Assembly: GCA_946803585.1 (NCBI GenBank)
Contig: CAMPEQ010000006.1
Location: 1 to 64,000 of the forward strand
Length of the DNA: 64,000 bases
Reading direction: 5' to 3'
Source of the DNA: an uncultured Actinomycetes bacterium
Lineage (GTDB): Bacteria > Actinomycetota > Actinomycetes > S36-B12 > UBA10799
The translations under genes were made by a program, and so were the position numbers. The notes under the pieces were generated by a model. It was not told the origin of the DNA and made no database searches. It saw nothing but the letters and a program-made list of their open reading frames with translations. Below are positions 44,616 through 51,974 of this stretch, in pieces. Each line of letters starts with the position of its first letter. Position 1 is the stretch's first letter.

Positions 44616-46598
44616 CTAGCTGGTCTCAATATCGGCATCATCGTCGAAGCTGGCTAGGAATTGGCTGTTGTAGAGGTTGTAGTAGAAGCCACCTGCAGCG
44701 ATCAGTTGATCATGGGTGCCGGTTTCGATGATCCGCCCGGCATCCATGACCAAGATGACGTCGGCATCACGGATTGTTGACAATCTGTGCGCGATGACAA
44801 AGCTAGTTCTGCCCTTGCGCAGATCCGCCATCGCCTTCTGGATTAGGACTTCGGTACGGGTGTCCACCGAACTCGTCGCCTCGTCGAGGATTAAGACGGC
44901 TGGATCAGCCAAGAAAGCGCGAGCGATCGTGACGAGTTGTTGTTCACCCGTTGAGAGGTTTGCAGCTTCAGTCCCGACGATCGTGTCGTAGCCATCCGGC
45001 AGGGTTCGCACGATGCGATCGACATGGGCCGCCTCGGCGGCACGAGTGATTTGCTCATCTGTGGGGTTTGCTGCCCCGTAGGCAATGTTCTCGCGAATCG
45101 TTCCCTCGAATAGCCAAGTGTCTTGTAGAACCATTCCAAAGGACCTGCGTAGATCGTCTCGACGTAGCTCGCGAATATCAATTCCGTCAAAGCTGATCGT
45201 TCCGTCATCGATCTCGTAGAAGCGCATCAGTAGATTGACCAAGGTTGTCTTGCCGGCACCGGTAGGTCCAACGATCGCGATTGATTGGCCGGGCTGTGCA
45301 TCCAAAGTCAGACCATCGATCAGTGCGGTATCTGCCAGGTACCGGAAGGACACATCGTCAAACACAATGTGGCCTCTGCGCTCACCCATCGATTCCGGTC
45401 GATCCGTCTCAGGAGACTGCTCTGGCTCATCCAAGACCTCAAAAACACGCTCGGCGGAGGCAAGGCCAGATTGCAGGAGGTTAGCAATGCTGGCAATCTG
45501 CGTGATTGGCATTGTGAACTGCCGGGAGTATTGAATGAACGCCTGAACATCTCCTAGGCTCATCGTTCCGCTGGCTACTCGAACGCCGCCGATTACCGCG
45601 ATCAAGACGTAGTTGATGTTCGCGATGAAGGCCATTGCTGGCTGAATCATCCCGGAGATGAATTGGGCACGGAAGGAGGACTCGTACATCTTGTGGTTCG
45701 CCTCGTCGAAGTCGATCTGAGCCTGCTCTTGGTGCCCGTACACCTTGACGAGCTCGTGACCGGAGTACATCTCCTCAACGTGACCGTTGAGGGTCCCGGT
45801 CCACTTCCACTGTCCGACGAACTGCCTCTGGGAGCGCTTGGCAATGAGCATGGTGACGATGAACGAAGCCGGGACAGTAAGTAGCGAGACGATCGCGAGC
45901 AGGGGGCTGATCCATACCATCATTACCAGGACACCGATCACCGTCAGCAGGGAGGTGATGAGCTGAGTGAGCGTTTGCTGCAACGTGGTGGAAATGTTGT
46001 CGATGTCGTTCGTCACCCTACTCAGGAGGTCGCCACGAGCGTGGCGATCGAAGTAGCGCAAAGGCAGTCGCCCGAGTTTGGTGTCGACGTCCTCGCGCAG
46101 AGTGAACATCACGCGCTGGGTGACACCGGCCATTAGGTAGTTCTGGGCCCAAGAGAACAACGAGCTAAGTAGATAGACAACGGAGACCAGGGCGATGATC
46201 TGGCCTAACCTGCTGAAGTCCACACCAACACCCGGCGTCACGGTCATGCCAGAGAGTAAGTCGGCTTGTTGGTTGTCCCCCGCGGCCCGCAGCGCCGCCT
46301 CGGCCTGCGCCTGGGTTGTTCCCGCTGGCAATTGCTTGCCCACGACTCCGTCGAAGATCACGTTCGTCGCGTTCCCCAACAGTTTGGGTCCGATAACCGC
46401 AAAGAAGACGCTAGTGACCCCAAGGGCGAGCACCAACGTGATGATGGGTGACTCAGGTTTCAGACGGCCGAGCATTCGCTTGGCGGTCCCTTTGAAATCG
46501 CGGGCCTTCTCCGGCACCGCCATTCCCATTCCGCCGCCGAACATGGCTTGCTGTCGACGTGGATTGGTTGGGCGGGCGCCACCGCTGGCGAGACTCAT
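44616..46598 (-). CDS. ABC exporter, fused permease/ATPase (heterodimer subunit)
   Basis: Walker A GPTGAGKTTLVNLLMRFYEIDDG, LSTGEQQLVTIARAFLADPAVLILDEATSSVDTRTE; ATG at 46598 overlaps upstream stop (ATGA). Confidence 0.94.
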   Translation of the reverse strand: MSLASGGARPTNPRRQQAMFGGGMGMAVPEKARDFKGTAKRMLGRLKPESPIITLVLALGVTSVFFAVIGPKLLGNATNVIFDGVVGKQLPAGTTQAQAEAALRAAGDNQQADLLSGMTVTPGVGVDFSRLGQIIALVSVVYLLSSLFSWAQNYLMAGVTQRVMFTLREDVDTKLGRLPLRYFDRHARGDLLSRVTNDIDNISTTLQQTLTQLITSLLTVIGVLVMMVWISPLLAIVSLLTVPASFIVTMLIAKRSQRQFVGQWKWTGTLNGHVEEMYSGHELVKVYGHQEQAQIDFDEANHKMYESSFRAQFISGMIQPAMAFIANINYVLIAVIGGVRVASGTMSLGDVQAFIQYSRQFTMPITQIASIANLLQSGLASAERVFEVLDEPEQSPETDRPESMGERRGHIVFDDVSFRYLADTALIDGLTLDAQPGQSIAIVGPTGAGKTTLVNLLMRFYEIDDGTISFDGIDIRELRRDDLRRSFGMVLQDTWLFEGTIRENIAYGAANPTDEQITRAAEAAHVDRIVRTLPDGYDTIVGTEAANLSTGEQQLVTIARAFLADPAVLILDEATSSVDTRTEVLIQKAMADLRKGRTSFVIAHRLSTIRDADVILVMDAGRIIETGTHDQLIAAGGFYYNLYNSQFLASFDDDADIETS

Positions 46599-48337
46599 AC
46601 CGCGTCCTGCGCAGACAACTGTGAGTCCACGATCTCTTGGTATGTCGCGCACGACTCGAGTAGTTGAGTGTGCGTGCCGATTCCCGCAATCTCACCGTCC
46701 TCCAAGACGATGATCTTCTGTGCCGACATGATGGTGCTCACCCGTTGGGCAACAAGTAGGACCGTAGTATCGCCCGATTCGGCTGCCAGAGCGGCCCGCA
46801 ATCTCGCATCGGTGGTGTAATCCAGGGCTGAAAAGCTGTCATCCAGAACGAGGACGGGCGCGCGGCGCACCAGTGCTCGGGCAACTGCGAGGCGTTGGCG
46901 CTGACCGCCCGATACGTTGGCCCCTCCTTGATCGATTGGAGAGTCGAGTCCGGCGGGAAGTTCGGAGACGAATGACGCGGCTTGCGCGACTCTCAGCGCG
47001 TGCCACACCTGATCATCGGTGGCTTGCTCATTACCGAACCGAACATTTGAGGCGATCGTTCCGCTGAACAGGAAGGCCTTCTGTGGAACAAGTGCCAGCC
47101 CCGCCCACACCTGTGCCTGCCGTTGTTCTCGGATGTCAACGCCATCAATCAATATCGCTCCAGCCGTCACGTCGTACAACCGGGGGACGAGATTGATGAG
47201 GGTAGTTTTCCCCGAGCCGGTACCGCCGATGATGGCGGTGGTTTGCCCCGGCTCGGCCGTAAACGAGATGCCAGTCAGAACCGGGTCTTGCGCACCGGGG
47301 TAGCTGAAGCCGACATCGCGAAACTCGATCAACCCGCGGGTATTCGGTTCAACCCTGGCCGCAATCGCTTCGGGCGGGGGATCTGTGATGGCCGGAGTCG
47401 TTTCCAAGACAGCCTGAATGCGCTCCGCGGAGGCGGCCGCCCGCGGGATCATCACAAACAACATGACCGCCATCATCACCGCGAAAAGAATCTGGGTGAT
47501 GTACTGCACAAAAGCGGTGAGGTCGCCGATCTGCATCTCACCGCTATCGACCAAACTGCCCCCGAACCAAATGATCGCGACGCTCGAGCCGTTCATGATG
47601 AGCATCAATGCGGGCAGCATCAGGGCAAACAAGCGCGAGACTCGAAGTGCAGTGGAGGTCAAGTCTGCATTTGCCTCCGCGAACTTTCGTTGCTCGTGGT
47701 CGGTCTGAACAAAGGCGCGGATGACCCGGATTCCGGCCAAGTTCTCTCGCAGTACCTCGTTGATTCGGTCGATCTTCTTCTGCATAGCTCGGAAGAGGGG
47801 GACTGCTTTGACCATCAACGTTGCGATGACGATCGCCATGATTGGGATGATCACCAGGAGGAGCCCGGAGAGTTTTACATCGAGGCGTAGGGCCATGATG
47901 ATGCCGCCGATAGCAGTGATCGGGGCGAGGACCATCATCGTCAACCCCATGAGAACGAGCATCTGCACTTGCTGAACATCATTGGTGTTTCGAGTGATGA
48001 GGGAGGCCGTGCTGAATGTGTTCACTTCATGCAGCGAGAAGCCTTGGACTCGATTGAACATCGAGGCACGCACATCGCGGCCGAAGCTCATTGCTGTTCT
48101 TGCGCTGAAGTAGACAGCGATAACTGAGGTAACTCCAAGAGCCAGGCTGACGCCGAGCATAATCGCACCGATTCTCACGATGTAGCCGATGTCCCCGGTG
48201 ACAACCCCGTCATTGATGATGTCGGCGTTGAGAGTCGGCAAGTAGAGGTTCGCCATTGCTTGAAGGAGTAGCAAGAAGACGATGACGACGAGGGTTCGTC
48301 GGTAAGGAGAGAGGAAGCGCCGGAGCAGGCTGGTCAC
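46595..48337 (-). CDS. ABC exporter, fused permease/ATPase (heterodimer subunit)
   Basis: Walker A GGTGSGKTTLINLVPRLYDV, VSGGQRQRLAVARALVRRAPVLVLDDSFSALDYTTD; six TM segments. Confidence 0.94.
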   Translation of the reverse strand: MTSLLRRFLSPYRRTLVVIVFLLLLQAMANLYLPTLNADIINDGVVTGDIGYIVRIGAIMLGVSLALGVTSVIAVYFSARTAMSFGRDVRASMFNRVQGFSLHEVNTFSTASLITRNTNDVQQVQMLVLMGLTMMVLAPITAIGGIIMALRLDVKLSGLLLVIIPIMAIVIATLMVKAVPLFRAMQKKIDRINEVLRENLAGIRVIRAFVQTDHEQRKFAEANADLTSTALRVSRLFALMLPALMLIMNGSSVAIIWFGGSLVDSGEMQIGDLTAFVQYITQILFAVMMAVMLFVMIPRAAASAERIQAVLETTPAITDPPPEAIAARVEPNTRGLIEFRDVGFSYPGAQDPVLTGISFTAEPGQTTAIIGGTGSGKTTLINLVPRLYDVTAGAILIDGVDIREQRQAQVWAGLALVPQKAFLFSGTIASNVRFGNEQATDDQVWHALRVAQAASFVSELPAGLDSPIDQGGANVSGGQRQRLAVARALVRRAPVLVLDDSFSALDYTTDARLRAALAAESGDTTVLLVAQRVSTIMSAQKIIVLEDGEIAGIGTHTQLLESCATYQEIVDSQLSAQDAV

Positions 48338-48502: not shown

Positions 48503-49171
48503 ATGAACGAACTGAGCCCGGCAGTATCGGCCCACCTCGAGCAGGTGGTTGACGGTCTGGTCGCGAACACCGGAGGCTCGATTCATCGCCATGATCTGCG
48601 GGTACTGGTGAATAGCTGCTACCAAGAACTTGCCAGCACTGCAAAGGTCACGACGTTCTTACCTGTTCTCACTAAACGGCTCGCATTTAAGCGATTGCGT
48701 GAACGCGGTGACCTTTCTGAGCTGTCCCTGCACGGGCTCCCAAAGATCCTCGTTGTTGATGAGCGAGACGCGACTCGCGGGCAAACTACAGCTGCCCTCC
48801 TGCGGTTCTACGCGCCCGGCCGCTTCCAGGTCAGCTCGGCCGGTATCAATCCGAGCGATGCGGTCAGCCACGTCGTCCCAGAAGTCCTGGGCGAGGTGGG
48901 GATGGATCTGACCGATACCCCGCGGCCGCTTGATCCGGAATCGTTGGCCGATGCGCAGTTCGTGATCGCTATCGGCGAGACGGGGATCGAGTCGTCAGCC
49001 ACGAGTGGCTCGCTGTGGGAGTGGGATATCCAAGCAGAGCTGAACGAGGATGATGAGCGGGCAGTAGCCGTGGTGTTAGCCGAGATCGATCACAAGGTTC
49101 GTGATTTTCTGCGGACGGTAGATCCAGACCACGACCTCCACGATCCACTGGTAGCGGTCCGCGACTCATAG
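48503..49171 (+). CDS. Three-helix-bundle + LMW-phosphatase/ArsC-like protein, catalytic Cys replaced
   Basis: N-terminal helical domain then KILVVDERDATRGQTTAALLRFYAPGRFQVSSAGINPSDAVSHVVPEVLGEVGMDLTD, which aligns to ArsC P-loop layout without the Cys. Confidence 0.78.
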   Translation: MNELSPAVSAHLEQVVDGLVANTGGSIHRHDLRVLVNSCYQELASTAKVTTFLPVLTKRLAFKRLRERGDLSELSLHGLPKILVVDERDATRGQTTAALLRFYAPGRFQVSSAGINPSDAVSHVVPEVLGEVGMDLTDTPRPLDPESLADAQFVIAIGETGIESSATSGSLWEWDIQAELNEDDERAVAVVLAEIDHKVRDFLRTVDPDHDLHDPLVAVRDS

Positions 49172-49229
49172 CTCCTCGTAGGCCTTTAGGCCCATCCTCG
49201 CGGGCGGGTTTGCCGCTAGCGTTGTGGCC

Positions 49230-51974
49230 ATGTCTGACGACAAGCTCTCGATCACTGGGGAAGACTCGATTCGGCACGTGTTCTCTTTCGATGAAGGCAG
49301 CCGGGAGTTGATTGACACCCTCGGCGGCAAGGGTGCGAATCTCGCGGAGATGACGCGGATGGGTTTGCCAGTCCCGCCGGGCTTCACCATCACCACAGAC
49401 ACTTGTCGATACTTCTTGGACACAGGGGGACTTCCCGCAACGTTCGCCGACGAGATGTCGCGCGCAGTGGCAGCGCTAGAGCAGCGCGCGGATAAGCGAC
49501 TCGGTGATGCAACTGACCCATTGCTGGTCTCGGTCCGCTCGGGTGCCCGGTTCTCGATGCCGGGAATGATGGAGACAGTCCTCGATATCGGCCTAAACGA
49601 CGTGAGTGTCGAGGGTCTTGCAGTAGTAGCCGGTGACTCTCGGTTTGCCTGGGACTCCTACCGGAGATTGATCCAGATGTTTGGCAAGACCGTACTTCAG
49701 ATTGATGGTGAGCGATTCGAGGTAGCGGTTCAACGCGCAGTCCGCGCTGCGGGAGCCAGTGCTGACACCGAACTGAATGTGGACCAATTGCGCGCCCTCG
49801 TTGATACCTACAAGGGGACGGTTCTGGAATGTACTGGAGCACCATTTCCGCAGGATCCGTTTGAACAACTTCAGCTCGCAGTGCGGTCGGTATTCCATTC
49901 GTGGAACACCCCGCGGGCAATTCTCTACCGTCGGCAAGAGCGGATCCCGGGCTGGCTCGGAACTGCCGTGAATGTCCAAGCGATGGTCTTTGGCAATATC
50001 GGTGGGGGCTCCGGTACCGGGGTGGCATTCACTCGGGACCCGAGTACGGGAACGCGCGGTGTGTATGGAGACTACTTGCCTGATGCGCAAGGTGAGGATG
50101 TCGTCGCTGGGATTCGAAACACGCTACCGCTGGCCGAACTAGGGGCTAGTGATCCAGCGTCGTACGCCCAACTCCTCGAGGTGATGGACCGGCTTGAACA
50201 CCACTACCGCGACCTGTGCGATATCGAGTTTACGGTCGAGCAGGGCACCCTTTGGATGCTTCAAACCCGCGTCGGAAAGCGAACTGCAGGCGCAGCCTTT
50301 CGGATTGCCATTCAGCTAGTCGATGAGGGCATCATTGATTTGGACGAAGCAGTGCGCCGAGTGAGCGGTGATCAACTTGCACACCTGATGTTTCCGGCCT
50401 TCGACACGACATCGGATGACGAGCCACTCGCGACGGGGATGAGTGCCTCGCCTGGTGCGGCGGTTGGCCAAGCGGTCTTCGATTCGCCCAGTGCGGTGGC
50501 TGCTGCTGCCGACGGTCATTCGGTCATCCTCATTCGTCGAGAGACGAACCCTGACGACCTCGCCGGAATGGTTGCCGCGGCGGGAGTCCTCACGAGTAGG
50601 GGAGGAAAGACGTCGCACGCCGCCGTTGTGGCGCGGGGAATGGGGAAAACGGCCGTTTGTGGAGTTGACTCGCTGCTCGTGGACACTGTCGCGCGTCGGA
50701 TGACAACCGCCGATGGCCAGGTGATCAACGAGGGCGATGTCATCTCGATCGACGGAACTAGCGGCGAGGTGTTTGTCGGATCGGTGGGTGTCGTGCCGAG
50801 TCCAGTGGCCCGGTACTTTGAAGCGGGTTTAGCGGACGCGCTCGAAGGTAGTGACGAGGCAACCCGTGAGCTGATCGTTGCGGTGGACCGACTAATGACC
50901 CATGCGGACTCGGTGCGGCGGCTACGGGTGAGAGCGAACGCTGATACGCGCGAGGATGCTGCGCGAGCTCGTCGAATGGGTGCTGAGGGAATTGGGTTGC
51001 TGCGCACGGAGCACATGTTTCTTGGTGAGCGCAAGGCGTTGGTGGAGCGGCTGATCCTGGCCGAGGAGGATCACGAACGCAAGGAGGCGCTGGCTGCGCT
51101 TCTACCCCTTCAGCGCAAGGACTTCATCCGTATTTTGGAAGCGATGGACGGGCAGCCAGTGACTATCCGGCTAATCGATCCACCGCTACACGAGTTCTTG
51201 CCTGATAGAACGGAACTGGCAGTTCGCGTTGCTCGAGCTGAGGAACGTGGTGCCGATAGCGAGGCCGATCTGCGAATGCTCCAGGCAGTCAATCGACTCA
51301 GCGAAGCGAATCCCATGCTTGGGTTGCGCGGGGTTCGCCTGGGGCTGGTACTGCCTGGTCTCTTTGCCTTACAAGTGCAAGCGATTGCGGAGGCGGCCTG
51401 CTTTCGGCAGCGGATGGGAGGTGATCCAAGAGCTGAGATCATGGTTCCGCTTGTGGGATCCATCCAAGAGCTCGAACTCGTGATTGATGAGGCAGTAGAC
51501 GTCCTCGCCGCAGTATCCGATGCTCACGGCTGCACGTTGGAGTTCCCGATTGGGACGATGATTGAACTTCCGCGAGCTGCGCTGACGGCCGGCCAGATCG
51601 CTGAAGCAGCCCAGTTCTTCAGCTTTGGGACAAACGATCTCACTCAAACGACCTGGGGATTCAGCCGTGACGACGTAGAGGCCGCGTTCTTCTCCGCTTA
51701 CATGGACAAAGGGGTATTCGGCGTTTCGCCTTTTGAGTCGATCGACGTCGAGGGGGTGGGGGAGTTGATACGGATCGCAGTGGCAAAGGGGCGACAGACC
51801 AGACCCGATCTGCAATGCGGAGTTTGTGGCGAGCACGGAGGCGATCCGGGATCTGTTCACTTCTTTGACGGAGTTGGCCTTGACTATGTGTCATGTTCAC
51901 CATTTCGAGTTCCGATCGCCCGGCTTGAAGCAGGCCGTAGCGCTTTGGGTGCCGGAAGGTCTGACACGCGGTAG
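49230..51974 (+). CDS. ppdK: Pyruvate, phosphate dikinase
   Basis: FDEGSRELIDTLGGKGANLAEMTRMGLPVPPGFTIT, TSRGGKTSHAAVVARGMGKTAVCG, LLRTEHMFLG, FSFGTNDLTQTTWGFSRDD. Confidence 0.97.
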   Translation: MSDDKLSITGEDSIRHVFSFDEGSRELIDTLGGKGANLAEMTRMGLPVPPGFTITTDTCRYFLDTGGLPATFADEMSRAVAALEQRADKRLGDATDPLLVSVRSGARFSMPGMMETVLDIGLNDVSVEGLAVVAGDSRFAWDSYRRLIQMFGKTVLQIDGERFEVAVQRAVRAAGASADTELNVDQLRALVDTYKGTVLECTGAPFPQDPFEQLQLAVRSVFHSWNTPRAILYRRQERIPGWLGTAVNVQAMVFGNIGGGSGTGVAFTRDPSTGTRGVYGDYLPDAQGEDVVAGIRNTLPLAELGASDPASYAQLLEVMDRLEHHYRDLCDIEFTVEQGTLWMLQTRVGKRTAGAAFRIAIQLVDEGIIDLDEAVRRVSGDQLAHLMFPAFDTTSDDEPLATGMSASPGAAVGQAVFDSPSAVAAAADGHSVILIRRETNPDDLAGMVAAAGVLTSRGGKTSHAAVVARGMGKTAVCGVDSLLVDTVARRMTTADGQVINEGDVISIDGTSGEVFVGSVGVVPSPVARYFEAGLADALEGSDEATRELIVAVDRLMTHADSVRRLRVRANADTREDAARARRMGAEGIGLLRTEHMFLGERKALVERLILAEEDHERKEALAALLPLQRKDFIRILEAMDGQPVTIRLIDPPLHEFLPDRTELAVRVARAEERGADSEADLRMLQAVNRLSEANPMLGLRGVRLGLVLPGLFALQVQAIAEAACFRQRMGGDPRAEIMVPLVGSIQELELVIDEAVDVLAAVSDAHGCTLEFPIGTMIELPRAALTAGQIAEAAQFFSFGTNDLTQTTWGFSRDDVEAAFFSAYMDKGVFGVSPFESIDVEGVGELIRIAVAKGRQTRPDLQCGVCGEHGGDPGSVHFFDGVGLDYVSCSPFRVPIARLEAGRSALGAGRSDTR

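Follow-up and report, generated by a model that had tools for sequence, protein, structure and literature searches.

The window, a stretch of 64,000 nucleotides from an uncultured Actinomycetes bacterium, encodes a homologue of arsenate reductases (ArsC) and low-molecular-weight (LMW) phosphatases that lacks the nucleophilic cysteine, as the original prediction had correctly observed. Judged from its sequence, the protein is well supported as a pseudoenzyme, combining a kept fold with the loss of catalytic residues across orthologues, and the nucleophilic Cys is missing in 7/7 members of the Cys-less set described below. It is very probably non-catalytic, and we assign a probability of about 0.5 to the reading that it represents a conserved pseudo-arsenate-reductase, which would have derived from a thioredoxin-type two-domain ArsC and would act by binding. 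The gene and its features are located as follows.

48503 to 49171, + strand: whole gene of the Cys-less two-domain ArsC-like protein, 222 aa (open reading frame, domain matches, codon usage)
48518 to 48703, + strand: N-terminal three-helix-bundle (dimerization-type) domain, residues 6-67 (NF046112, PF21234, model helices)
48743 to 49120, + strand: ArsC/LMW-phosphatase-fold domain, residues 81-206 (by sequence 3t38, 3rh0 and 1y1l; by fold 3t38, 3rh0 and 1jl3)
48758 to 48784, + strand: degenerate phosphate loop D86-E-R-D-A-T-R92-G-Q94, where the family has C-X2-N-X2-R-S-Q (gap-free alignment)
48803 to 48826, + strand: branch-specific RFYAPGRF segment, residues 101-108 (conservation in the clade)
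48977 to 48994, + strand: former position of the CX3C redox cysteines, aligned residues 159-164, which read ETGIES against CGDACP of the family (alignment)
49034 to 49039, + strand: former position of the Asp-Pro segment, residues 178-179, now Ala-Glu (alignment)
49121 to 49150, + strand: branch-specific C-terminal tail DPDHDLHDPL, residues 207-216 (conservation in the clade)

The gene is intact. Its 222 codons are free of stops, and codon usage, which resembles that of the neighbouring genes, supported this frame (+0.145 bits per codon; –0.52 and –0.61 for the remaining + frames). Scans for a promoter and a terminator around the gene gave no result. The N-terminal three-helix bundle, which had been claimed to be kept, was recovered by NF046112 ("three-helix bundle dimerization domain"; 33.5 bits, cut-off 25, 4e-8), by PF21234 (31.8 bits, cut-off 27, 2e-7) and by an AlphaFold2 model with helices at residues 6-23, 29-44 and 50-67. 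The model, built from a shallow alignment of three sequences (mean pLDDT 76, pTM 0.72), continued from the three helices into an ArsC alpha/beta fold in which strand 81-86 ends at Asp86. Foldseek ranked 3t38 first (1.7e-9), followed by 3rh0, 1z2d and 1jl3. Searches of the PDB by sequence matched the C-terminal part to arsenate reductases and one LMW-phosphatase-family protein, and to nothing else. The best match was again 3t38, the thioredoxin-dependent Cg_ArsC1' of C. glutamicum (E 5e-17, residues 24-206), which aligned over both domains and without gaps in the loop. Since this match spans residues 24-206 and the Asp is common to orthologues with 49-52% identity, the ArsC-like match is not a chance similarity. 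PF01451 (LMWPc) did not match the window protein even at E 1, and it did match an orthologue of 48% identity (35.5 bits against a cut-off of 23.2).

Closer inspection of the ArsC domain bore out the details on which the loss of catalysis had been proposed. The motif ILVVDERDATRGQ was found at the claimed codons (D86 at 48758-48760, R92 at 48776-48778, Q94 at 48782-48784), its alignment with the Cys-containing loop of 3t38 placed Asp opposite Cys without any gap, and the downstream segments RFYAPGRFQVSSAGINPS and WDIQAE were present as quoted. Positions 86, 159, 163, 178 and 179, invariably C, C, C, D and P among 61 canonical relatives, are all substituted: D86 occupies the nucleophile position of CX5R, E159 and E163 stand in place of the CX3C cysteines (61/61 canonical relatives, 0/7 Cys-less members), and Ala178-Glu179 in place of D178-P179 (61/61 canonical relatives; kept in 2/7 and lost in 5/7 Cys-less members). 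Given these losses, ArsC thiol chemistry should be impossible; the predicted loss of arsenate-reductase activity thus gains further support from the absent redox pair (7/7) and Asp-Pro segment (5/7). In contrast, R92, Q94, G114, P140, G158 and W174 are present in all seven Cys-less members. The window loop carries further changes, namely H88 to R, N89 to D (also in the Cys-less copy of genome G036) and S93 to G (in the window copy alone). Without Asn89 and Ser93, the window copy is less likely than its relatives to possess an intact anion-binding loop.

Comparison with known systems placed the protein nearest to Cg_ArsC1', both by sequence and by predicted fold. The two share the ArsC/LMW-phosphatase fold preceded by an N-terminal helical domain, but the Cys nucleophile, the CX3C pair and the Asp-Pro segment of Cg_ArsC1' are replaced in the window protein, and its gene lies outside an ars operon; location with ars genes is usual for thioredoxin-type ArsC, not strictly defining. 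The three-helix-bundle ArsC of actinobacterial ars operons (NF046112; Tsukamurella and Pseudonocardia plasmids) has the same N-terminal domain and a homologous ArsC domain. These plasmid proteins, however, carry CVHNAGRSQ and MGCGDACP and occur with arsR and acr3, none of which applies to the window protein. With LMW protein tyrosine phosphatases (PF01451) it shares the fold superfamily, but its loop DERDATRG does not conform to their CX5R(S/T) signature, and Ala178-Glu179 takes the place of their Asp-Pro general-acid loop. Three ordinary LMWP/ArsC proteins are encoded elsewhere in the same genome, one of which has all cysteines (CVHNAGRSQ, MGCGDACP). The latter, a complete ArsC, is encoded in a compact ars-like cluster (contig C11; L109:3989-6184), in which the gene of an ArsR-like regulator is divergent from those of a glyoxalase-like protein, an aquaporin-like channel and the ArsC itself. 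Because the genome holds a complete ArsC in an ArsR-linked cluster, the Cys-less copy would be free of ArsC duty.

Relatives were searched in 60 related genomes, in the whole order (166 genomes), and in 397 genomes from the phylum and 395 from the class. By profile score, seven proteins (231 to 341 bits) stood apart from the remaining relatives, none of which exceeded 174 bits; as these seven went into the profile, their high scores follow from its construction, and the loop is the informative fact. The seven stem from independent assemblies of six genera. Their loops read DERDATRGQ (window), DEHNSTRSQ (G007), DEHNAARSQ (G008 and G010), DEHNSARSQ (G028), GPTNSGRTQ (G040) and DSGDAGRSQ (G036), with Asp in six members and Gly in one. 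The last two are the most divergent copies, with 33% (G040) and 24% (G036) identity to the window protein. In the G040 copy (L046; loop VLVCGPTNSGRTQ), a Cys lies one residue before the Gly, within the strand. Orthologues with Cys at the site had been named in advance as the refuting observation; Cys was found in 0/7 members of the branch and in all 61 other relatives aligned. Members of the Cys-less set were found in only two families of the order, with a patchy spread, and none was seen in roughly 750 other actinobacterial genomes outside this order. Apart from the G010 copy, a genome contig scan gave a single hit, which was short and weak. A search for viral relatives found none. Plasmid records with a match numbered 87, all under 60% identity, and two plasmid relatives labelled "phosphatase" both had the Cys.

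A tree of 68 proteins (IQ-TREE) put the seven Cys-less members on one side of a branch with support 89/84. After removal of the catalytic columns, six of them formed a clade at 100/99, which the seventh, the long-branched G036 copy, joined at only 71/64. On these trees, a single loss in the six clade members is the simplest reading, and G036 may represent an independent loss. The clade has also acquired conservation of its own: R101, F102, Y103 and P105 of the RFYAPGRF segment are kept in 6/6 members, with F102 and P105 in 0/61 canonical relatives, and the tail (pattern DPDHxLHxP) shows H210 and P215 in 5/6 and L212 in 6/6, residues rare among canonical relatives, in a region where model confidence is low from residue 214. 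Further clade-specific conservation was seen in VVDGLV near residues 15-20. These branch-specific residues persist although overall identity is only 33-50%. Three cysteines lost in all members, an Asp-Pro segment lost in most, kept fold positions and new clade conservation together are what the change from an enzyme to a binding protein would be expected to look like.

We propose that the protein descended from an ArsC of the Cg_ArsC1' type, built of a three-helix bundle and an ArsC domain, with retention of the fold, the bundle and the loop arginine. It would form a redox-insensitive dimer, dimerization being drawn from the domain name of the bundle. Asp86 would substitute for the position and charge of the catalytic thiolate and pair with Arg92, which may either shut the old pocket or keep it ready for a side chain of a partner. 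The putative partner protein would be contacted by the clade-specific RFYAPGRF face and the C-terminal tail. A functional analogy is offered by the phosphatases PRL/PTP4A, in which exchange of the catalytic Cys for Asp abolished catalysis in PRL3 and retained binding to a transporter, because Asp preserves the charge of the thiolate, whereas Ser or Ala at this position eliminates catalysis as well as partner binding (PMC7960985; PMC12192612). PRL3 C104D resembles the window protein in a CX5R-type loop with Cys replaced by Asp, a kept Arg and, probably, the lack of catalysis. The likeness is one of function only, as PRLs are eukaryotic and belong to another phosphatase superfamily, of unrelated fold, that uses the same CX5R chemistry, and the Asp is engineered in PRL3 but natural in the window protein. 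Moreover, the analogy would be closer for the DEHN-type relatives than for the window copy; with the loop-shaping residues Asn89 and Ser93 lost, it may not reach the window pocket. In the window copy, the old pocket is unlikely to be in use, and the RFYAPGRF face is the more likely contact. That the selected function of the protein is that of a protein binder or regulator has roughly even odds.

The Cys-less copies do not share their genomic surroundings, with one exception. In G040 and G036, which represent two genera of a single related family, pstB is immediately followed on the same strand by the Cys-less gene, after 37 and 22 bp, respectively. No Cys-less gene adjoined pstB at 24 other pstB loci, one of which stops at a contig edge. 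The identity of pstB was confirmed with TIGR00972; other neighbour names in the relatives' genomes (pst, NUDIX, CHAD etc.) were assigned by inspection of the translations, except where a family search is named. Near the pst-linked copies (L040:3772-8389 and L107:3587-5570), convergent genes for NUDIX-phosphohistidine-phosphatase-like and CYTH-CHAD-like proteins were seen, and in G036 a polyphosphate-kinase-like gene lies nearby as well. Arsenate enters cells via phosphate importers, and an ArsC ancestor beside such an importer would therefore be natural. The Cys-less proteins could accordingly be regulators of phosphate uptake that arose beside the importer and tune Pst or phosphate signalling, as in PRL-CNNM or PhoU-Pst, the window copy having moved and kept the same job. 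This alternative seems rather improbable, given that pst linkage occurs in 2/7 members, which are the two most divergent copies, that clade membership of G036 is weak, and that all five DEHN-type copies, the window's included, lie away from pst; pstB of the window genome is on another contig (C3). Simple replacement of PhoU was rejected, since PhoU is present in all but one genome carrying the Cys-less gene, G036 and G040 included. Rather a long shot is the more specific idea of a natural counterpart of the PRL3 Cys-to-Asp switch, in which a redox-insensitive former arsenate reductase would control a transporter, foremost Pst.

The window gene itself is placed between divergent ABC exporter genes (44616-48337, – strand) and a pyruvate phosphate dikinase (PPDK) gene (49224-51974, + strand). 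The exporter genes form an overlapping pair, probably encoding a heterodimer, with 73-80% identity across several genomes of the family. A functional link to the neighbouring genes was not supported: the exporter genes are kept in four relatives in which the Cys-less gene is not adjacent in the stretches read, and in G008 the two are on different contigs. The PPDK gene starts 52 bp after the ArsC-like gene, and co-transcription is possible; the orthologues examined do not have PPDK as neighbour. Neighbours differ from copy to copy in G007, G008, G010 and G028, and no conserved neighbour gene of the DEHN-type copies was seen at the loci read.

It is also improbable, more so than phosphate regulation, that the gene is a decaying relic without function in this species. 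Among the DEHN-type copies, the window loop has eroded furthest, and no copy was seen in three genomes of the same genus, two of which are incomplete. Against decay speak the intact reading frame with normal codon usage, the intact frames of all six relatives and the good preservation of the clade segments RFYAPGRF and DPDHDLHDP in the window copy. A new enzymatic activity, in which Asp86 serves as nucleophile or general base (e.g., in a phosphatase forming an acyl phosphate) or the Asp-Glu pair binds a metal, would agree with the presence of Asp86 and Glu87 in 5/5 DEHN-type members and of Arg92 in 7/7. We consider it very improbable, as the residues around Asp86/Glu87 vary (positions 88, 89 and 93 in the window copy), Gly replaces Asp in the clade member G040, 5/7 lack the Asp-Pro segment and no fresh set of conserved, catalytic-looking residues was found. 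We found nothing in favour of an ordinary ArsC altered by a sequencing error or a strain-specific mutation; the idea is refuted by the Asp in five further independently assembled genomes and by the absence of the other catalytic cysteines.

Returning to the reading of a conserved pseudo-arsenate-reductase, a full-text search of the open-licence literature found no description of naturally Cys-less ArsC or of inactive ArsC or LMW phosphatases. A clade in which all three ArsC cysteines have disappeared is a clear-cut example of an enzyme that has probably become a binding protein. Automated annotation based on the fold or the N-terminal domain would label such proteins as arsenate reductases or phosphatases and lead to false predictions of arsenic resistance. 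Finally, the pst-linked copies suggest a testable evolutionary path from arsenate detoxification to phosphate control.
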